Source of the DNA: a virus | Reading direction: 5' to 3' (one strand) | Length of the DNA: 54,230 bases | IMG/VR virus record: IMGVR_UViG_3300006793_000042 | Coordinates: 1-54,230 of that record | Part shown: positions 6,218-48,393 of the stretch, in pieces | Layout of the letters: each line of letters begins with the position of its first letter | Numbering within the stretch: position 1 is the first letter of the stretch | Made by a program: the position numbers and the translations under genes | The notes under the pieces: model-generated | Databases searched by the model: none | Told to the model about the DNA's origin: nothing | Seen by the model: only the letters and a program-made list of their open reading frames with translations

Positions 6218-6814
6218 CTACAGCGGGGCCTTGGGTAATTCTTTGCCTGGATAGAACTCTGTAGTGGTCTTCCATTTCTCAATAGTAGGTTCTGCTGATG
6301 CCACATGGTGTAAATTGATATTGGCCATGTCGTGCTTCTCAAGTTCTTCTAAGACTAGTGAGCTGTAGACAAAAAGGTTAGTGATGTCGTTTGCTGTAGT
6401 GATGACTTTATATAGTGAGGTGTTATTAACACTCGTAGTGAACGTTTGTATAGCAGTGACACCATTGAACTTACTAAAGTCTTTAGTGTATCTATTACCA
6501 TGTAACCAAGTAATGTTATCAGGTATACTGTTACTGTTCATCTTAATATCCTCTGCAACAAGGCCATGCATATGAACGTCTTTAAAGCCTGCTTCTATTA
6601 GTCTATCATATGTTATAGAGCCAATACAATGCACCGTTTGATCTAACAAAGATTTTATATCGTGTTGGTAATGCCTAACGCAATCAATATGCGTTACAAG
6701 TAATGGTTGGTCTGGTGCTACTATTTGATCTGCTGTAGGTTCTGTTATTAAACATGGAAACCATTTACTATTGGCATCTAAACTAGGTTTGTTTAGCTGT
6801 GTGTAAACATTCAT
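6218..6814 (-). CDS. Possible uroporphyrinogen-III synthase-like (HemD-like) protein, 198 aa
   Basis: Tentative call from the order of HemD-like segments: LLVTHIDCVRHY (about 38-49, like the ITSxxAV segment), VHCIGSITYDRLIEAGFKDV (61-80, like VGxxTAxALxxAGF), ITWLHGNRYTKDF (about 101-113, like the LxGxxxxxxL strand) and FVYSSLVLEELE followed by HHVASAEPTIEKW. HemD closes hydroxymethylbilane to uroporphyrinogen III; it is poorly conserved, so motif reading alone is weak. The presence of hemA elsewhere in the window supports a tetrapyrrole role. A late-type promoter GTAAATA ends 5 nt before the ATG, and a 13-bp direct repeat flanks the gene. Confidence 0.4.
   Translation of the reverse strand: MNVYTQLNKPSLDANSKWFPCLITEPTADQIVAPDQPLLVTHIDCVRHYQHDIKSLLDQTVHCIGSITYDRLIEAGFKDVHMHGLVAEDIKMNSNSIPDNITWLHGNRYTKDFSKFNGVTAIQTFTTSVNNTSLYKVITTANDITNLFVYSSLVLEELEKHDMANINLHHVASAEPTIEKWKTTTEFYPGKELPKAPL
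6219..6238. repeat. Direct repeat, copy 1
   Basis: TACAGCGGGGCCT plus GGTAA, with two differences between the blocks, repeated at 6896-6915 in the same orientation. The pair brackets the HemD-like gene. Confidence 0.6.
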
Positions 6815-7193: not shown

Positions 7194-7433
7194 ATGAAGA
7201 TATACGAAATAGACATAGAAGCTCTTGAAGAAGCGGCGGCAAGTGCAAAACTTTGTAAAAGTAATCGTTCAAACGATTCTTTAGGAGCAAGTGCTTTGGC
7301 CTCATGCAAGAGTCAAGGATACCGAAGACGTGAAGGCGCCAAATCACATAAGATTGGTGACAATCGCAAGAAGGTCGGAGGCAAACGTATTAAAGGGAAA
7401 AAATATGGCGGACCATTACCAGACTGGAGTTAA
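7194..7433 (+). CDS. Small basic phage protein, 79 aa
   Basis: An acidic first 15 residues, then a Lys/Arg/Gly-rich tail with LGASALASCKSQG, KVGGKRIKGKKYGG and terminal PLPDWS. I recall this C-terminal pattern from small basic proteins of T4-like marine phages, function unknown. No ribosome site; the start is 5 nt after a late-promoter box. Confidence 0.75.
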   Translation: MKIYEIDIEALEEAAASAKLCKSNRSNDSLGASALASCKSQGYRRREGAKSHKIGDNRKKVGGKRIKGKKYGGPLPDWS

Positions 7434-12591: not shown

Positions 12592-12903
12592 ATGAGCGTA
12601 GATACAAAGTACGGAGAAGCCATCTTTAAACAGACCCAAGAGGTTGCAGAAATGTTTAAGGCGGCAATGCCAAAAATCACAACAAACAAAAACGGATACG
12701 AAATCAGAACCAAAGTGTTAGAAATGGCACAAGGTAATATCTGGAACGATTACCATGCCAAGTTTAACGGATGGGAACAAAGTGTAAAACGTGATCCTAA
12801 AACTAATGAGATTGTAAGTTCTGTTACAATGCCAGAGGTACCAGGAACTGAAGCTGTACTAGAAGCGGCTGAAAAGTTTTACGAGTTCATAAATCAAAAG
12901 TGA
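12592..12903 (+). CDS. Conserved phage hypothetical protein, 103 aa
   Basis: AAGGAGAAT precedes the ATG. The protein (MSVDTKYGEAIFKQTQ...) has EIRTKVLEMAQGNIW, FNGWEQSVKRD and a C-terminal VLEAAEKFYEFI helix. I recall homologues in T4-like marine phages, with no known role. Confidence 0.75.
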   Translation: MSVDTKYGEAIFKQTQEVAEMFKAAMPKITTNKNGYEIRTKVLEMAQGNIWNDYHAKFNGWEQSVKRDPKTNEIVSSVTMPEVPGTEAVLEAAEKFYEFINQK

Positions 12904-12982: not shown

Positions 12983-13046
12983 GGTCCTGTTAACACAAAC
13001 GCACAGAGATTCATTGTTTACATGTCAACATGCAGTTAACAGGACC
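12983..13046 (+). promoter_or_regulatory. Leader hairpin covering the methyltransferase ribosome site
   Basis: A perfect 12-bp inverted repeat GGTCCTGTTAAC (12983-12994) / GTTAACAGGACC (13035-13046). The AGGA that would serve the ATG at 13057 lies in its 3' arm, so folding would hide it. A smaller GTGC-ATA-GCAC hairpin precedes it. Confidence 0.5.
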
Positions 13047-13056
13047 AACCCCTATT

Positions 13057-13857
13057 ATGAATGAACTAACACAAAAAGAATTAGACGAAGTATTCGCAAG
13101 GCTTGGCGCACAAGCTGACGATACTATACGAGAATCTAAAGTTAAGCCAATGAACCCTGTGCTTAACTTATCACACCCAGACTTCTTTGAACAGTATGTA
13201 AAGAACATAGACTGGAAGCCCTTACAGAATCACGGCCTAGAACAATTACATAATAAATTTAATTTAGAAACTATTGATCAAGACTGGCCAGGACAAATCA
13301 ATGCGTACTTGGATTTGTTGACAGACATTAATTTAGATGGAGCCAAGATACTTGATGTTGGTTGTGGTTGGGGTCGCGGAGTTGATGTCCTTAGAAGATA
13401 TTATAACATAAATGTTCACGGCATAGACAATAACAAAGACTTTATAGAGTATGCTAGAACTAATTACCCTAACAACCATTACTTTACTAGCGGTAATACA
13501 GAGTTGAAAGACTATAACGTGCTATTGTTTTTAGATAGTATGCATGTGATGTTTGAGCAAAAACTGTTTCATAGTGTTGCTCCAGATACACTATTAGTTG
13601 TATCAGACTTCTTTACAACTGACACATACGAGCAATTTAAGAACATGATTGAGATTGAGAAGTTTACTTGTTTGCTCGAAAAAGACCAAACAGAAGCAGT
13701 AATGAAAGCTATGACTAGAGACATAGACACACTTAAAACAAGGTTTAATAGCATAGAGCCGCATATCGTTAATACATTTAAGCATTTACAACTGAACCAA
13801 TTACACCAGTTTGAGATAGGTCACACCAAACAATACAAGTTCGTTATCCAGACTTAG
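13057..13857 (+). CDS. Class I SAM-dependent methyltransferase, 266 aa
   Basis: Motif I is ILDVGCGWGRGVDVL (about 97-111) and the acidic motif II follows (VHGIDNN, about 119-125), so the Rossmann SAM fold is clear. The substrate is unknown; no DNA target domain is visible. The N-terminal 80 residues are a helical cap. ATG 13030 is an alternative start but has no ribosome site. It precedes hemA by 29 nt, so heme-pathway or small-molecule methylation is possible but unsupported. Confidence 0.8.
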   Translation: MNELTQKELDEVFARLGAQADDTIRESKVKPMNPVLNLSHPDFFEQYVKNIDWKPLQNHGLEQLHNKFNLETIDQDWPGQINAYLDLLTDINLDGAKILDVGCGWGRGVDVLRRYYNINVHGIDNNKDFIEYARTNYPNNHYFTSGNTELKDYNVLLFLDSMHVMFEQKLFHSVAPDTLLVVSDFFTTDTYEQFKNMIEIEKFTCLLEKDQTEAVMKAMTRDIDTLKTRFNSIEPHIVNTFKHLQLNQLHQFEIGHTKQYKFVIQT

Positions 13858-13871
13858 TATAAAATACGCAC

Positions 13872-13878
13872 ATAAATA
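13872..13878 (+). promoter_or_regulatory. T4-type late promoter just before hemA
   Basis: ATAAATA ends 8 nt before the hemA ATG, predicting a leader of about 3 nt. Confidence 0.5.
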
Positions 13879-13886
13879 GCTGTGCA

Positions 13887-15065
13887 ATGATTGACAAAAC
13901 TCCATTTGAAAACACAGTTGATGATTTGAAAAAATCAGGTAACTATCGAGTCTTTAACGATATCTTACGTGAAAGAGGAGAGTTTCCTAATGCCATCTGG
14001 TATGGGAAGTATGCTATAAAAAATATAGTAAACTGGTGTTCAAATGATTACCTAGGAATGGGTCAGCATAAGGTGGTTCTAGACGCAATGCATACTGCAC
14101 TTGATCAAACAGGAGCAGGATCAGGCGGGACTAGAAATATTGCGGGTACAAGTCATTATCACGTTGCCCTAGAGAACGAACTCGCCCAACTGCATAGCAA
14201 AGGAGCGGCTTTACTCTATACATCAGCATATGTAGCAAATGAATGGACTCTAATTGCGTTAAAACGTATCATTCCCGACATTGTTTTTATTAGTGATAGC
14301 AAGAATCACGCTTCCCTCATTCAAGGAATACGAAACAGTGGTGCAGAAAAGAAAATATTCAGGCACAATGATCTTGAGCATTTAGAAGAACTACTGCGAG
14401 ACGTCGAAGGCACACCTTGTATTGTTTTCGAGTCCGTGTATAGCATGGATGGATACGTCAGTGACATACCAGGCATTGTTGCTCTTGCTGAGAAGTACGG
14501 TGCTATTACATATCTCGATGAAGTCCACGCCGTTGGCCTGTATGGTGAAACAGGTGCAGGATATTCTGCAAAGCAAGGATCACAGGATAAAATCGATATA
14601 CTGAATGGCACCTTAGGGAAAGCCTACGGAGTGCAGGGAGGATACATTGTAAGTGATAATATTATCATTGATGCTATTCGCTCTGTTGCTTCGGGGTTTA
14701 TTTTTACTACTTCAATGAGTCCTGTTATTTGTGCAGGAGCATTAGCTAGTGTAAAATATTTAAAAGACCATAACGAACTACGAGAACAACACCAGGAACG
14801 AGCCAAAAGACTTAAAAAACTTCTTACCAACAGGGACATCCCTATCTTCGAAAACGTAACACACATCGTTCCTATTAAGATCGGAGATGCTAAGAAGTGT
14901 AAAGCTATAAGTGACGAACTTATAAATGAGTATGGAATTTACTGTCAAGCAATCAACCATCCAACGGTTGAAGTAGGTACAGAGCGCCTACGCCTTGCTC
15001 CGACACCTTTCCATTCGAATGCAATGATGCATCAATTAATTGAGGCTCTACAGAAAGTACTATAA
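13887..15065 (+). CDS. hemA: 5-aminolevulinate synthase (Shemin pathway), 392 aa
   Basis: Condenses glycine and succinyl-CoA to 5-aminolevulinate, the first step of tetrapyrrole synthesis in alphaproteobacteria. Landmarks: NYRVF near residue 20, WCSNDYLGMGQH (about 50-61), TGAGSGGTRNIAGTSHYH (about 74-91), NHASLIQGIRNSGAEK (about 139-154), the PLP Asp in YLDEVHAVG (about 211-219), the Schiff-base Lys in LNGTLGKAYG (about 239-248) and GTERLRLAPTPFH near the end. Length matches alphaproteobacterial HemA, so it looks intact. The DUF454 gene starts 2 nt after its stop. Viral ALA synthases have, to my recollection, been reported from aquatic phage sequences. Confidence 0.95.
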   Translation: MIDKTPFENTVDDLKKSGNYRVFNDILRERGEFPNAIWYGKYAIKNIVNWCSNDYLGMGQHKVVLDAMHTALDQTGAGSGGTRNIAGTSHYHVALENELAQLHSKGAALLYTSAYVANEWTLIALKRIIPDIVFISDSKNHASLIQGIRNSGAEKKIFRHNDLEHLEELLRDVEGTPCIVFESVYSMDGYVSDIPGIVALAEKYGAITYLDEVHAVGLYGETGAGYSAKQGSQDKIDILNGTLGKAYGVQGGYIVSDNIIIDAIRSVASGFIFTTSMSPVICAGALASVKYLKDHNELREQHQERAKRLKKLLTNRDIPIFENVTHIVPIKIGDAKKCKAISDELINEYGIYCQAINHPTVEVGTERLRLAPTPFHSNAMMHQLIEALQKVL

Positions 15066-15067
15066 CA

Positions 15068-15496
15068 ATGATGAAAAACTTTAATATAAAAAAGGCGTTT
15101 TGGTTTACGCTAGGATGTCTACTATTAGGTGTAGCGTTTGTAGGAATTTACCTACCAGGCTTACCTTGGAGTACACCGGCAGTTGGTGCCGCATATTGCT
15201 TTGCGAAGTCAAGTGATAGAATGCACAACTGGATTATGAACCATAAACTATTTGGTCCGTTTCTACGTGGCTGGAGCGAGAAAAGAGTATTTCCAACTAA
15301 AGGAAAATATTTAATGATCGTAACAATGTGTTCAAGTTTAGTTATTATGTGGTTTACTACAGGTAACTTAAAAGCAATAGCATGGACTGGCGGCTTCATG
15401 GTCCTTGTTGCTATATGGGCTTGGAGATATCCAGGATCACATAAAGAACATGCTTTTAGAAAAGCAGAAGGCCGACGAATTGCATGGCTGAAGTAG
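15068..15496 (+). CDS. DUF454 (YbaN-like) inner-membrane protein, 142 aa
   Basis: Pattern KAFWFTLGCLLLGVAFVGIYLPGLPWSTP...AAYCFAKSS, then a helix with MNHKLFGPFLRGW and two further membrane segments (about 80-96 and 101-117). GxxLPGLPxTP is the DUF454 signature. Function unknown in bacteria. It begins 2 nt after hemA, so the two are cotranscribed, which suggests a linked role. Confidence 0.85.
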   Translation: MMKNFNIKKAFWFTLGCLLLGVAFVGIYLPGLPWSTPAVGAAYCFAKSSDRMHNWIMNHKLFGPFLRGWSEKRVFPTKGKYLMIVTMCSSLVIMWFTTGNLKAIAWTGGFMVLVAIWAWRYPGSHKEHAFRKAEGRRIAWLK

Positions 15497-15798: not shown

Positions 15799-16032
15799 AT
15801 GGATATCTTAAATAAAATAAAAACTTGGGCTAGTGCCATTACTGAGGTAGGTGTATCACTTATCGCTTTAGGTATTGTGCTTGAAGTTTTGTTCAACGGT
15901 CAAAACATTCCGTTCTGGCCAAACATCAGCGTAGTAAGTAACATCACTGGAATGATAAGTTCATTATCTGCACAGGGACTTGTTGGCTTAGTAGCTGTAT
16001 GGGTGTTATATCACATTTACAATCGCAAGTAA
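15799..16032 (+). CDS. Two-segment membrane protein, 77 aa
   Basis: Starts after AAAGGAGATC. Membrane segments at about 17-32 (GVSLIALGIVLEVLF) and 57-74 (AQGLVGLVAVWVLYHIY). I recall near-identical patterns in T4-like cyanophages; function unknown, holin-like size but not shown. Confidence 0.75.
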   Translation: MDILNKIKTWASAITEVGVSLIALGIVLEVLFNGQNIPFWPNISVVSNITGMISSLSAQGLVGLVAVWVLYHIYNRK

Positions 16033-16479: not shown

Positions 16480-16583
16480 TAGTGAAAGTACCCTCCCCAG
16501 AACAATCCGTTAACAAGCATTACGCCTACTAAGATTGACATCATGATACTAAATGGAATTAGTGCAGATATAACATTACGCAT
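16479..16583 (-). CDS. Membrane micro-protein, 34 aa
   Basis: MRNVISALIPFSIMMSILVG and a further hydrophobic stretch form one membrane helix; overlaps the end of the DUF1127 gene (16576) by 8 nt and couples to the next micro-ORF. Confidence 0.55.
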   Translation of the reverse strand: MRNVISALIPFSIMMSILVGVMLVNGLFWGGYFH

Positions 16584-16818
16584 GAGCTTTACCTTTCCAA
16601 GTTGCTACAGGTTTCCCTCGCATATAATGGTCGCCAGCTTCATACTTGTCTTTGGCTTCCATATCTCGGATTGGTTCATCAGCAATGTAATCTATATCAC
16701 CACGTTTGATTCCAATGTCTCTCAAGTCATGATCGCTTAGGCTATGCAATACTGCTCTAGTATTTCTAGCACGACTATGAGCTTTTGATATTTTAAATAT
16801 TCTAGCGAAGAATGACAT
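16576..16818 (-). CDS. DUF1127 (YjiS-like) protein, 80 aa
   Basis: Contains the DUF1127 core LHSLSDHDLRDIGIKRGDID (about 24-43) after a basic N-terminal segment. DUF1127 proteins are small, Arg-rich and common in alphaproteobacteria; some have been tied to RNA handling and stress. The second copy is 17024-17287. Overlaps its upstream gene by one base. Confidence 0.85.
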   Translation of the reverse strand: MSFFARIFKISKAHSRARNTRAVLHSLSDHDLRDIGIKRGDIDYIADEPIRDMEAKDKYEAGDHYMRGKPVATWKGKAHA

Positions 16819-17024
16819 TACTTAATTCTCCCTTGATCTAACATTAAGTTACGTGCTTGTTCGTGATAGCCTTGACGTGATAGTTCAGCGGCCGCTCTAG
16901 CTCGTCCTGCACTTTCACCAAACGCAATCATTGCAATCCACATACCTAATAGTACGTTTCTAATTACTACACACGTTTTGCATGTGAAGTCCCAAGTTGT
17001 TGATCTTAATTCTATAGCAGTCAT
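16818..17024 (-). CDS. Membrane protein between two DUF1127 genes, 68 aa
   Basis: The start at 17024 overlaps the upstream stop (TAATG) and has AAGAGG 9 nt before it. Residues about 15-36 are hydrophobic (TCKTCVVIRNVLLGMWIAMIAF); the tail SAGRARAAAELSRQG is helical. Function unknown. Confidence 0.65.
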   Translation of the reverse strand: MTAIELRSTTWDFTCKTCVVIRNVLLGMWIAMIAFGESAGRARAAAELSRQGYHEQARNLMLDQGRIK

Positions 17025-17287
17025 TATACCCATCCTCTTAAATTTTTGTTAGTTGTAGCGTTGCTCATTCTTTTATCATGAAAATTGCCTAAAGCAATTG
17101 ATGTAATATCAGAACGTCCAATGCCTAAATCACGTAGTTCGTGATCTGTTAGTTGGGATAATTCCTTGTGTGTTCTACGAATCGCGGCTTTGTTAGCTCT
17201 GTTTCGTTTCCACTCTTTTGTTAAATCAATCAACCCTTCAATAGCGTCTTGAATTACAGTAGATACTGTTAAAATTGCTGATGTCAT
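17024..17287 (-). CDS. DUF1127 (YjiS-like) protein, 87 aa
   Basis: DUF1127 core ELSQLTDHELRDLGIGRSDI (about 43-62) preceded by a basic helix KEWKRNRANKAAIRR. Paralogue of 16576-16818. Starts at the overlapping stop of the 59-aa gene. Confidence 0.85.
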   Translation of the reverse strand: MTSAILTVSTVIQDAIEGLIDLTKEWKRNRANKAAIRRTHKELSQLTDHELRDLGIGRSDITSIALGNFHDKRMSNATTNKNLRGWV

Positions 17288-18122: not shown

Positions 18123-18878
18123 ATGAAATTAATCATTGCAGGGTATGGGTATGTTGGTAAGGCATACCATGCTATACTTAAAGAGTCTTGGGACGTTGAA
18201 ATTCACGACCCGTCACTTGGGTATGTCGCTGACTTTGATAAAGTTTGTCAAGGAATTATTTGTTGTGTGTCAACACCGTCTAACACAGACGGATCATGTG
18301 ATGGCAGTAATGTCATTGACGTTGTTAATCAAGCAAGACAGTTAGATAATATTCCTGTGCTTGTTAAAAGTACTATTGATCTTAAAGTCTGGGATCAAAT
18401 CAAAGAGTCAAACACAACCTTTAGTCCAGAGTTCCTACGTGCTGAAACAGCCGTAGAGGATCTGTGCAATACAGAAACACACTTTCTTGCTAAAGGCGAT
18501 ACAAACTTTTGGGCAACTATACTAATAGATGCTCTTGGTAAGATTAACGTGAATACTAAAAACTCCCCTGAAGAACTTATTTTAATAAAGTATCTAAGAA
18601 ATAGTTTCTTAGCAACTAAAGTAAGTTTCTTTAATCAAGTATATGACTTATGTGAAGCAAGTGGTGTCGACTATACATCAGTTGCTAATGGTGTAAGTGT
18701 AGACAAACGTATTGGTGAAAGCCATACAAGTATAACGACAGAGCGTGGCTTTGGAGGACATTGTTTTCCTAAAGACACACTAGCTCTAACAAAGTTGGCA
18801 GAACAACATGGTGTTGATCTGTCGTTAATTGAATGTGCTATCAAGTACAATTACCAAGTAAGGAAGGACAACGTTTGA
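18123..18878 (+). CDS. UDP-glucose/GDP-mannose dehydrogenase-like protein, short form, 251 aa
   Basis: N-terminal NAD fold with GYGYVGKAY (about 6-14); [15 protein letters not shown] (about 47-61); [10 protein letters not shown] (about 100-109); the central helical domain [17 protein letters not shown]; and the catalytic Cys in FGGHCFPKD (about 216-224). It stops where the C-terminal sugar-nucleotide domain would begin (family length about 430), so substrate binding may differ. Likely acts on nucleotide sugars, for example host surface polysaccharide. Confidence 0.85.
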
Positions 18879-18880
18879 AA

Positions 18881-19834
18881 ATGAAAATTATCACAGGAAA
18901 TGCTAATCCAGATTTAGCACAACAGATTGCAGAACATTGTTTTGCAACACTAGTACCGGCTAACGTATCGACGTTTGCTGATGGAGAAAGTAGCGTAGAG
19001 TTTTTAGAAAATGTACGTGGCGAAGATGTGTTTATTATACAGAGTACATGTACACCTGTTAATGATAGTGTTATGGAACTTATGATTATGATTGATGCGG
19101 CACGTAGATCAAGTGCAAGTAGAATTACCGCAGTCATTCCTTACTTTGGTTACGCAAGACAAGATCGTAAGAGTGCTTCACGTACTCCTATCACAGCAAA
19201 ACTTGTTAGTAACTTATTAACAACAGCAGGTGCAGATAGAATCTTAACAATGGATTTACATGCAGGACAGATACAAGGCTTCTTTGATATTCCTGTAGAC
19301 GATTTAACAAGCCGTGTAGTATTTGCAAAAGATATCAAACGTTCAATTGGTTGGAGAGATGATCCAGAAGTACATCAACAAGGTACAGTATTTGTAAGTC
19401 CTGATGCAGGCGGTGTTGTTCGTGCTAGAAAGTTTGCTGACATGTTTGGAGGCGACATTGCTATTGTAGACAAACGTAGACCAGAAGCAGGCAAGAGCGA
19501 AGTAATGAATCTAATAGGAGATGTAAAAGACAAACATGCTATTCTAGTAGATGATATTGTAGACTCAGGCGGAACATTATGCAATGCGGCCAAGGCGATT
19601 ATGGATGCAGGTGCATTAAGTGTTAGAGCATATATCACACACGGTGTACTGTCAGGTGAAGCATGTCAAAAAGTTGAGAAGTCAGTACTTGAAGAATTAG
19701 TAGTTACAGATACTATTCCTAATCGTTGTCCTAAGAACTGTAAGAAAACAAGACAAGTAAGTGTTAGTAATCTATTTGGTGAAGCAATACGCAGAGTTAC
19801 CAATGAAGAATCAGTAAGTAGTTTGTTTGTATAA
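18881..19834 (+). CDS. prs: Ribose-phosphate pyrophosphokinase (PRPP synthetase), 317 aa
   Basis: Transfers pyrophosphate from ATP to ribose 5-phosphate, giving PRPP for nucleotide synthesis. Motifs: [16 protein letters not shown] (the Mg/ribose region, about 126-141), [16 protein letters not shown] (about 170-185), the PRPP-binding loop [17 protein letters not shown] (about 223-239). Full family length. TTG 18875 overlapping the upstream stop is an alternative start with better ribosome-site spacing. Works with NrdA/NrdB and GuaC of this window. Confidence 0.93.
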
Positions 19835-20892: not shown

Positions 20893-21264
20893 TTAAAGTT
20901 TAATTTCTGTTAGACCATTTTCCCTATCAAGGTATTTAAAATCTATCTTAGTAGGGTTATATTTTTGTAACCAATCAAATACTACATTAGGATCAAACAC
21001 TCCGCAAGTATACACATCAAGTTGTATCATAGCAGGATCTGTTTCGTCCCATGTGTGTATTATAACATGACTAGTTTCTATAATAGTAGCAACAGTCAAC
21101 CCTCTATTACCTTTCATATTACAATATTTGGCATATGGTCCCATTAGGATCTTCATACCTATTGCCTCTATCAAGGCTTTCACATCATTACTTGTAAGGG
21201 TTTCATCTGTTGGCGGATTAGTAACTTCCGCTCGAATTATCACATGTTTGTGAACTAACTGCAT
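20893..21264 (-). CDS. speD: S-adenosylmethionine decarboxylase-like protein (SpeD), 123 aa
   Basis: The core IIETSHVIIHTWDE (about 61-74) carries the Ser-His pair at the self-cleavage/pyruvoyl site, followed by LDVYTCGVFDP (about 81-91). This matches the prokaryotic SpeD family (about 120 aa), which makes decarboxylated SAM for spermidine synthesis. speD is common in T4-like marine phages. Confidence 0.88.
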   Translation of the reverse strand: MQLVHKHVIIRAEVTNPPTDETLTSNDVKALIEAIGMKILMGPYAKYCNMKGNRGLTVATIIETSHVIIHTWDETDPAMIQLDVYTCGVFDPNVVFDWLQKYNPTKIDFKYLDRENGLTEIKL

Positions 21265-21326: not shown

Positions 21327-22121
21327 ATGATACCAGAACAAGGGATTATGACTATGAACTTCAAGCAAAGAAGTTTATTGTTTGCGAAAATAAGCCAAAT
21401 TGCTTACTTAAATAAAGCCAGTGCTACAAAGCAGGCTAAAAAATTAGGTTTTACAACTGTAGAGTACTACGATGTAAAAGGAGCTCAATCTTACCGTTTT
21501 ATGAACAAACGTGATTTAGTTGTAGCTTGTCGAGGAACAGAACCAACACAATACGCAGACATCAAAGCTGATGCTAATGCGTTACCAGTTATAGCAGAAA
21601 CAGTTAGTAGAGTACACAAAGGATTCAAAGGGCAAGTAGATGAGCTATGGCCAGCTATTAGAGAAGACTTAACTCGTACACAAAATAAAAATAAAGACGT
21701 GTGGTTTACAGGACACAGTTTAGGAGCGGCAATGGCAACTATTATGGCTAGTCGTTGTTTGTACTTTGAACTAGTGCCTAACCCAGAAGAACTTTACACA
21801 TATGGATCACCAAGAGTAGGTTGGACAGGGTATGTTAATAGTTTAGGTATCACCCATCATCGTTGGAAGAACAATAACGATATAGTAACAACTGTTCCTC
21901 TTGCCATTATGGGTTTCAAACACCACGGAACTATGCACTACCTAAACAGTTATGGTAATGTACGTAAACCTACTGGGTGGCAAATGGTTAAAGATAGATT
22001 ACGTGGCATGTGGTCAGGTATTAAAAAAGGTCAAATAGATAATTTTTCAGATCATTTGATACACAACTATATTGATCATTTAGAAAACTTTGCTAAAGGT
22101 AAAGAGAACCCACAAAAATAA
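21327..22121 (+). CDS. Class 3 lipase-like alpha/beta hydrolase, 264 aa
   Basis: The nucleophile elbow is GHSLGAAMA (about 129-137) with Ser in GxSxG; LYTYGSPRVGW (about 155-165) carries the usual Pro-Arg-Val stretch, and the late His lies in the HHGTMHYL region. No signal peptide, so it would act inside the cell, for example on membrane lipid at lysis. GAGAGGG precedes the ATG. Confidence 0.88.
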   Translation: MIPEQGIMTMNFKQRSLLFAKISQIAYLNKASATKQAKKLGFTTVEYYDVKGAQSYRFMNKRDLVVACRGTEPTQYADIKADANALPVIAETVSRVHKGFKGQVDELWPAIREDLTRTQNKNKDVWFTGHSLGAAMATIMASRCLYFELVPNPEELYTYGSPRVGWTGYVNSLGITHHRWKNNNDIVTTVPLAIMGFKHHGTMHYLNSYGNVRKPTGWQMVKDRLRGMWSGIKKGQIDNFSDHLIHNYIDHLENFAKGKENPQK

Positions 22122-29441: not shown

Positions 29442-29726
29442 ATGCTGATACGTGAAGTCACATCAATAGACGAAAAACAAATTTGGGCACGTTCTGGAAA
29501 GAAAGTAGTCCGCAAGTACCGTTGTACCCAAGGTCCTCGTAAAGGACGTATAGTGAAAAAGATGTCGCAATGTTTTGCGGCACCTAATATTAAAGCAAGA
29601 ATTAACATGAAACGCTTACGAGCTAAGATAGGCGGCAAGATGATGCGTAAGGCTCGCAGAACTAAACGTGTTAATCCTGTTTCACGCAGAGTCCAGGCGT
29701 TAAATAAAGCAGGACGCAGAAGATGA
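29442..29726 (+). CDS. Highly basic protein, paralogue 1, 94 aa
   Basis: Lys/Arg-rich, with WARSGKKVVRKYRCTQGPRK (about 14-33) and GRIV following. The next gene has the matching KTKGKLVRKYRCTSGTRKGR block, so the two are tandem paralogues. Probably binds DNA or RNA, perhaps packaged in the head. No ribosome site. Confidence 0.75.
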   Translation: MLIREVTSIDEKQIWARSGKKVVRKYRCTQGPRKGRIVKKMSQCFAAPNIKARINMKRLRAKIGGKMMRKARRTKRVNPVSRRVQALNKAGRRR

Positions 29727-47337: not shown

Positions 47338-48393
47338 ATGCCACCACGTAATCATAAGAGTTGGTTAGCACAACCAAACGTAGAATCAATCAGCAGTTCA
47401 GCATATAACGATCCAGAAGTATTTGCACAAGAGCAAGAACGTATCTTTTCAAAGGTATGGGTGCCAATGTGTCATATCTCAGAGATGTATAACAAACTAG
47501 ACTACCGAACAACACAGATAGCAGGTGTTAATGTTATTGCATACAACACAGGCGATGGTGTTCGAGCATATCGTAACTATGGCAGTTGGGCACCTAGTGG
47601 TACGCTAGGAGCACCTATTGTAACTGTTGAACCACAGTTGCATTGTGAAGTAAAGCACGGAGGTATGGTATGGGTAACACTAGATCCTAATCCAACGCAA
47701 AGTGTAGAACAATGGACAGCAGGTGCATTTGATTGTATCGCTGATGCTATTGACACAGAAGAAATGGAAGTGTTTCATTATCATAAGGCAGTAATAAATA
47801 CCAACTACAAGTTATGGCATGATACTAACAGTGAATTCTATCACGACTTCATGCACTACTTTAATAGAGTAAGTGGATTCAACGATGAGTACTTCGCACG
47901 TAAAAATTTACCTTTTGATAATGGGCATGTTAACGTGTCTAGTTTTACTGTCAACTATGAGGAGTACGAGGGCTTTGAAGATAGAGGAGAGTTATCATTT
48001 CCAAACTTGCCGCCCAATCAATGGTACATGGTCGATTTGTTCCCCGGCTTCAACTTTAACCTTCGAGGCTCCGCCTACCGTAGTGATTCAGTTACTCCCC
48101 TAAGTTGTAACAAAGTTCTTATTGAGTTTAGAGGTTACGGACTACGCAAAGATACACCCAAAGAAAGACTAACACGTATCAAACATCACAACAGTATATG
48201 GGGACCGTTCGGACGTAACCTACACGAAGACCTAATTGGTGTAGCAGGACAAGGAACAACAATGCGTGAAGGCACAGAAGCACGTAACATACTTCATGGT
48301 AGACATGAAAATGGAACTATACATGATGAAGTAGGTATGCGTCATTACTATTCAGAATGGGGCAAGTATTTGGATGTTGACCCGTATCAGTAA
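47338..48393 (+). CDS. Ring-hydroxylating-oxygenase-like protein lacking the Rieske centre, 351 aa
   Basis: The N-terminus (FSKVWVPMCHISEM, then a DGVRAYRNYG strand) follows the Rieske oxygenase alpha-subunit layout, but the CxH...CxxH cluster ligands are missing where they should be (between about 75 and 105). The catalytic domain is kept: TNYKLWHDTNSEFYHDFMHYF (about 154-174) has the Asn/His/His pattern of the mononuclear iron site. About 80-100 residues shorter than usual. Either an oxygenase fed by another donor or a repurposed fold. Confidence 0.75.
   Translation: MPPRNHKSWLAQPNVESISSSAYNDPEVFAQEQERIFSKVWVPMCHISEMYNKLDYRTTQIAGVNVIAYNTGDGVRAYRNYGSWAPSGTLGAPIVTVEPQLHCEVKHGGMVWVTLDPNPTQSVEQWTAGAFDCIADAIDTEEMEVFHYHKAVINTNYKLWHDTNSEFYHDFMHYFNRVSGFNDEYFARKNLPFDNGHVNVSSFTVNYEEYEGFEDRGELSFPNLPPNQWYMVDLFPGFNFNLRGSAYRSDSVTPLSCNKVLIEFRGYGLRKDTPKERLTRIKHHNSIWGPFGRNLHEDLIGVAGQGTTMREGTEARNILHGRHENGTIHDEVGMRHYYSEWGKYLDVDPYQ

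Follow-up and report, generated by a model that had tools for sequence, protein, structure and literature searches.

The locus described here carries a gene for 5-aminolevulinate synthase (ALAS, hemA/alaS) followed by a gene of the DUF454/YbaN family, with a candidate late-promoter box in front of the former and a SAM-dependent methyltransferase gene upstream of it (Table 1). The window, i.e., the whole stretch of DNA analysed, comprises one entire IMG/VR virus record, which is linear, 54,230 bp long and possibly a fragment. Six tRNA genes were found in it, together with genes for a phage exonuclease, a PAAR-endolysin fusion, class I ribonucleotide reductase (RNR) and 2OG-Fe(II) oxygenases. 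One protein of unknown kind has its homologues chiefly in T4-like cyanophages, and also in Methylophilales and Pelagibacter phages. The virus is most likely a T4-like marine myovirus. Two DUF1127 genes stand near the cassette; they belong to a family of Alphaproteobacteria and presumably point to a host of that class. Further metabolic genes are located at 47338-48393(+), 21327-22121(+), 20893-21264(-) and 18123-19834(+), and the kinds named for these four spans are a ring-hydroxylating oxygenase alpha subunit, class 3 lipase, SAM decarboxylase, UDP-sugar dehydrogenase fragment and PRPP synthetase.

Table 1. Features of the ALAS-DUF454 locus and related genes of the window.
Feature	Position	Strand	Remarks
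Divergent HemD-like gene (putative uroporphyrinogen-III synthase fold), 198 aa	6218..6814	-	hhalign; TAAATA 5 nt before ATG
Conserved gene without assigned family, near the cassette in relatives	12592..12903	+	homologues a few kb from ALAS in L224, L240-L243
SAM-dependent methyltransferase	13030..13857	+	PF13649, E 3e-8; directly upstream of ALAS
T4-type late-promoter box CATAAATA, candidate	13871..13878	+	ends 8 nt before ALAS ATG
Viral 5-aminolevulinate synthase (ALAS, hemA/alaS), 392 aa	13887..15065	+	TIGR01821
ALAS residues identical to R. capsulatus (R. capsulatus number)			R21(21), N53(54), T82(83), N84(85), I85(86), S136(137), H141(142), K155(156)
The same, continued			S186(189), D211(214), V213(216), H214(217), T242(245), K245(248), T360(365), R369(374)
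DUF454/YbaN-family protein, 142 aa, putative membrane protein	15068..15496	+	PF04304
Small hydrophobic protein, conserved near the cassette	15799..16032	+	homologues in L224, L241-L243
DUF1127 genes, two	16576-16818, 17024-17287	-	near the cassette

The identity of the first gene was established by comparison with family models and solved structures. The ORF matches TIGR01821 with an E value of 5e-171 and 569 bits against a curated cut-off of 338.55, residues 6-391 being aligned to positions 6-393 of the 402 in the model, while the models of the sister families BioF, KBL and SPT give far lower scores, each under its own cut-off (311 bits against 426 for BioF and 242 against 493 for KBL). The nearest solved structures are the ALAS entries 7x98 and 2bwn. 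An alignment with the R. capsulatus enzyme (2bwn) showed no difference at any of the PLP, glycine and succinyl-CoA residues checked; among these is the PLP lysine, K245 here and K248 in R. capsulatus. All of them are invariant in 34 diverse viral homologues. The intact, full-length phage ALAS of the original prediction was thereby borne out. The likeness to alphaproteobacterial HemA/ALAS (2bwn, 7x98) extends to full length and all catalytic residues, but the viral clade is separate from the two cellular outgroups used and the viral enzyme is without the feedback residues: the position of the heme-feedback His342 is occupied by K337, and the C-terminus stops short of Cys400. The gene is under purifying selection, since dN lies far below dS (0.09/0.79 and 0.10/1.5). 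Thus, the sequence describes a full-length ALAS gene with intact catalytic residues, which is apparently working and whose product is most likely feedback-insensitive. It is highly improbable that the gene encodes another alpha-oxoamine synthase (BioF, KBL or SPT) or an inactive relic of ALAS; these enzymes share a fold superfamily and the BioF and KBL models match too, but only the ALAS model is matched above its cut-off, none of the checked residues is lost, the dN/dS values speak against a relic, and a phage homologue is active according to the main text of Wegner et al. 2024 (PMC11480375).

According to the original prediction, viral ALA synthases had been reported before, and this is correct. 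In the main text of Wegner et al. 2024 (Nat Commun 15:8783; PMC11480375), valaS is described as an auxiliary metabolic gene of aquatic T4-like phages, the ALAS of phage CB_2 produces ALA and rescues an E. coli strain auxotrophic for it, and activities are known for the ALAS, HemO and PcyA homologues of that phage. The present gene likewise stands on a phage genome, as indicated by the IMG/VR record, the phage genes and the homologues in cyanophages and Pelagibacter phages. It resembles valaS, as the main text presents it, in being a phage Shemin-pathway ALAS without the His342/Cys400 feedback residues, and some contigs of the described genomes, pelagiphage-like myoviruses, carry hemO and pcyA/X as well. 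A difference lies in the partner: the three-gene cassette of that text is hemO-pcyA/X-valaS, whereas the ALAS of the window is paired with DUF454. Viral ALAS itself is therefore already known, and the enzyme belongs with the described viral alaS genes. DUF454, a HemD-like gene and the late-promoter placement are not mentioned in the main text of PMC11480375. Among the open-access papers searched, we found no report of the DUF454 linkage, of a late box before the ALAS ATG or of the HemD-like gene, and no paper in the DUF454 literature searched ties this family to phage ALAS. No cultured phage with the cassette was found in the INPHARED set, where the ALAS matches are BioF/KBL/bacterial-like with <36% identity and the DUF454 matches are YbaN-like with <32% identity.

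The DUF454 gene begins, as had been noted from the sequence, 2 nt past ALAS (stop codon 15063-15065, ATG at 15068). Its product matches PF04304 with an E value of 2.9e-28 and 98.6 bits against a gathering score of 35.1, covering model positions 1-114 of 115. The AlphaFold model is all-helical with a pLDDT of 89.5; three of its helices span 19-22 residues and the others are shorter. A fold search of this model against the PDB gave no usable structural neighbour. Purifying selection is again indicated by dN << dS (0.13/1.6 and 0.06/0.9). With Pfam PF04304 and E. coli YbaN the protein shares the core P30, P33, S49, W55, H59, F62 and G63 and the character of a small helical, putative membrane protein, although the conservation of W55, H59, F62 and G63 in cellular sequences is selection-biased as the search patterns used there included W..[NS]H..FG. 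In contrast to these relatives, the viral DUF454 clade has its own invariant M83, W117, R131, F65 and F75, and it is linked to ALAS, whereas E. coli, which has the family, lacks the Shemin pathway. We found no function assigned to the widespread DUF454/YbaN family.

Viral ALAS loci were sampled as the best 80 of 583 and the best 80 of 164 hits, a sample biased to relatives of the query. Among the best 80 of 583, DUF454 is present in 63: downstream on the same strand in 58, directly upstream in 4, where a bilin reductase then follows ALAS, and on the opposite strand in convergent orientation in 1. In a stricter set of non-redundant contigs, for which a second, more distant seed was added, duplicates were removed and 1.5 kb of flank was required on both sides, DUF454 occurs in 47/80 (36 downstream, 8 upstream and 3 on the opposite strand) and 33/80 ALAS loci are without a nearby DUF454. 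Conversely, ALAS lies within 4 kb of 52/80 viral DUF454 loci; 5/27 of the remaining ones have ALAS elsewhere in the record. At many viral DUF454 loci ALAS is missing from the fragment, and some of these records are as long as 99-330 kb. The linkage is real and recurrent. The relatives had also been looked at for DUF454 unlinked from hemA, the outcome named in the original prediction as contrary to it, and this did not occur.

The history of the pair is informative. At least 5 changes of the DUF454 state are needed on the ALAS tree, where two of three large clades are positive throughout (40/40), which means that the linkage survives rearrangement; the third clade largely has a bilin reductase (FDBR) in the downstream slot. 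The two genes are exchanged independently of each other (Mantel r 0.31) and yet remain adjacent; between the window and one related locus (L018), ALAS is 78% and DUF454 92% identical. An adjacency kept despite reordering and separate exchange is best explained by selection for the linkage. The triplet DUF454-ALAS-FDBR also occurs (L048-L050, L076, L105-L107, L110), and in L153 a heme oxygenase (HO)-FDBR pair adjoins DUF454. One viral ALAS is flanked by two different DUF454 genes in the order DUF454-ALAS-DUF454 (L136).

Two contigs binned into MAGs deserve separate mention. A 335-kb contig of a Neomarinimicrobiota MAG (PBPT01000016.1; L171/L224) contains a phage-like stretch which is syntenic with the window and carries ALAS-DUF454; near its cassette are an alternative oxidase (PF01786, E 2e-76, L171:7439-8029-) and PstS/PstC-like genes. 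This could be read as a phage metabolism in which heme supply goes together with a terminal oxidase that needs no heme; alternatively, the contig may be chimeric. The other (PAND01000020.1; L170), binned to Flavobacteriales, is a near copy of the window phage and probably misbinned. Both were considered as cellular relatives and rejected, being phage-like contigs in MAGs.

The methyltransferase that had been predicted to precede ALAS is indeed there, but does not belong to the conserved unit: of the best 80 of 583 ALAS loci it is present in 14, which are confined to the closest relatives, and it is better regarded as a clade-specific neighbour.

In a broad sample of cellular DUF454 genes, none of the 25 commonest neighbouring families is related to heme. 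DUF454 can thus not be taken for a heme gene wherever it occurs, and a general heme neighbourhood for cellular DUF454 was rejected. Of 144 alphaproteobacterial genomes drawn evenly across the class, DUF454 is present in 48 and ALAS over the cut-off in 119; the two are adjacent in 1/48 of the DUF454-bearing genomes (G218), where DUF454 directly precedes ALAS and is read in the same direction. A second genome of the same family (G242) has the same order, and each of the two has another ALAS elsewhere. In both, DUF454 lies 72-74 nt before one of the two ALAS genes (G218:C63:40417-42029, L222; G242:C370:7158-8767). From the literature, DUF454 co-occurs with hemophilin-type T11SS (type 11 secretion) clusters in 118/1,111 cases, a frequency similar to that of heme oxygenase (137/1,111; PMC12282271), and iron restriction induces DUF454 in Avibacterium (PMC7970244).

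The late-type box that was originally noticed 8 nt before the ALAS ATG is real, with ATAAATA at 13872-13878, and it is conserved. By itself the box is mildly enriched in the window (28 found vs 19.9 expected). Its placement is more telling, as TAAATA ending 5-9 nt before the ALAS ATG was found in 28/45 distinct viral upstream regions vs 19/434 other ORFs of the same loci (Fisher p 2e-21, an optimistic value as related sequences are not fully independent). Judged from these upstream regions, the placement before ALAS is not chance. Loci in which DUF454 comes first (L048-L050, L076) have no box in front of ALAS. In the T4 scheme, a late transcript begins a few nt past its box. With the box of the window so close to the ATG, little or no leader would remain on the ALAS message if the putative late promoter is used. 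For comparison, several other genes of the window have a box further upstream, at 20-25 nt, and most of these also have a GGAG-type ribosome site; the late consensus of cyanophages is NATAAATA (PMC2984593). A small second class of ORFs has TAAATA exactly 5 nt before the ATG, namely 6218-6814(-), 7194-7433(+) and 29442-29726(+), and the class is seen in relatives (L002-L081) as well. These ORFs are distinct from the 20-25 nt/GGAG genes and are candidates for leaderless late genes of T4-like marine phages.

A HemD-like gene had been proposed without coordinates, and only one ORF of the window fits it, 6218-6814(-). Its profile, built from four homologues, was compared by hhalign with that of ten alphaproteobacterial HemD sequences and gave a Prob of 85.7 and an E value of 5.5e-6 (for a single comparison) over about 126 columns. 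The best of 100 column shuffles reached a Prob of 3.5, the reversed profile 0.2% and the other ORFs of the window at most 4.7%, so that the proposal holds in the profile-profile test. The match includes the IG..T..L...GF region of HemD (uroporphyrinogen-III synthase, PF02602), but the protein is shorter (198 aa), its N-terminal part is unmatched and it lies below Pfam detection. No Pfam match, to PF02602 (HEM4) or any other family, was obtained for this ORF at E<=1, and it is therefore called HemD-like rather than HemD. PF02602 was found in none of the virus records searched, phmmer of the protein against the PDB gave no match, and its AlphaFold model is unusable (pLDDT 40.6). The gene is under purifying selection, and homologues, down to 59% identity over the aligned part, occur in phage contigs which also carry ALAS-DUF454.

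The product end of the pathway is encoded in some relatives. Among 50 viral ALAS records, heme oxygenase was found in 12 and bilin reductase in 19, while hemO and pcyA/X are absent from the 54-kb window. In the nearest long relative (G020), the ALAS of which is 98% identical, HO and FDBR are located at 62-65 kb, just past the 60-61 kb region to which the end of the window corresponds; the window thus probably stops a few kb before HO/FDBR. In another locus (L162, from G027), a phage heme oxygenase adjoins a gene of the tryptophan-halogenase family (PF04820, E 4e-92).

Taken as a whole, these observations find their best explanation in a T4-like marine myophage with a tetrapyrrole module under late phage control, to which we assign a probability of about 0.6. 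A late promoter situated almost on the ALAS start codon would give a short or leaderless mRNA, and late in infection the feedback-insensitive enzyme would keep or raise the supply of ALA. The HemD-like protein may act at the uroporphyrinogen-III branch point, favouring uroporphyrinogen III, and DUF454 in the inner membrane may handle the product end by trafficking or buffering of heme or porphyrin; alternatively, within the same explanation, it may hold ALAS at the membrane. In close relatives, HemO and bilin reductase (FDBR) would convert surplus heme to bilins with release of iron. A raised tetrapyrrole flux in infection we infer from the activity of the homologue and the absent feedback residues, and we likewise infer the late timing, the role of DUF454 and the HemD-like activity. 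The linkage in most related viruses suggests that DUF454 helps to handle heme or its precursors.

DUF454 could also be a membrane partner or regulator of ALAS itself rather than a handler of heme or porphyrin, and could bring ALAS to the membrane or into contact with succinyl-CoA synthetase or enzymes further down the pathway. The coupling is specific to ALAS, the two genes being adjacent or overlapping in most loci, it is held with DUF454 either before or after ALAS, and the same pair recurs at the second ALAS of two bacterial genomes, all of which would fit such a partnership. We nevertheless consider it rather unlikely, because there are phage and bacterial genomes with DUF454 but without ALAS, E. 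coli has DUF454, ALAS scores over the cut-off in 1/14 control genomes, and DUF454 adjoins HO-FDBR in L153 as well.

The phage records with DUF454 but no ALAS, along with the absence of heme enrichment in the broad cellular sample, would also suit a general envelope protein concerned with membrane stress, lysis timing or superinfection, whose place next to ALAS would be a frozen accident that travelled with the cassette. A single frozen event, however, is not expected to leave at least 5 trait changes, three orders or orientations and separate exchange of the two genes, nor an FDBR that fills the same slot in another clade, and we regard this explanation as quite improbable.

Returning to the tetrapyrrole module under late phage control, what is known is the system of viral ALAS as a metabolic gene, and what is new is the ALAS-DUF454 pairing together with a HemD-like gene. 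A more far-reaching version, in which DUF454 is a dedicated tetrapyrrole membrane protein and the phage family runs its own extended pathway from near-leaderless late transcripts, is offered tentatively and seems somewhat unlikely at present; its parts would be a feedback-free ALAS, an own uroporphyrinogen-III synthase and the DUF454 membrane handler, followed by HemO and bilin reductase. ALAS catalyses a single, easily assayed step, and its recurrent link with DUF454, along with the two bacterial pairings, offers a direct test of the role of DUF454. With a phage HemD-like gene, viral tetrapyrrole metabolism would reach into the middle of the pathway, beyond its two ends, ALA and the conversion of heme to bilin. 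The near-leaderless late promoter would tie the module to late infection, and this bears on why phages boost heme or bilin synthesis.
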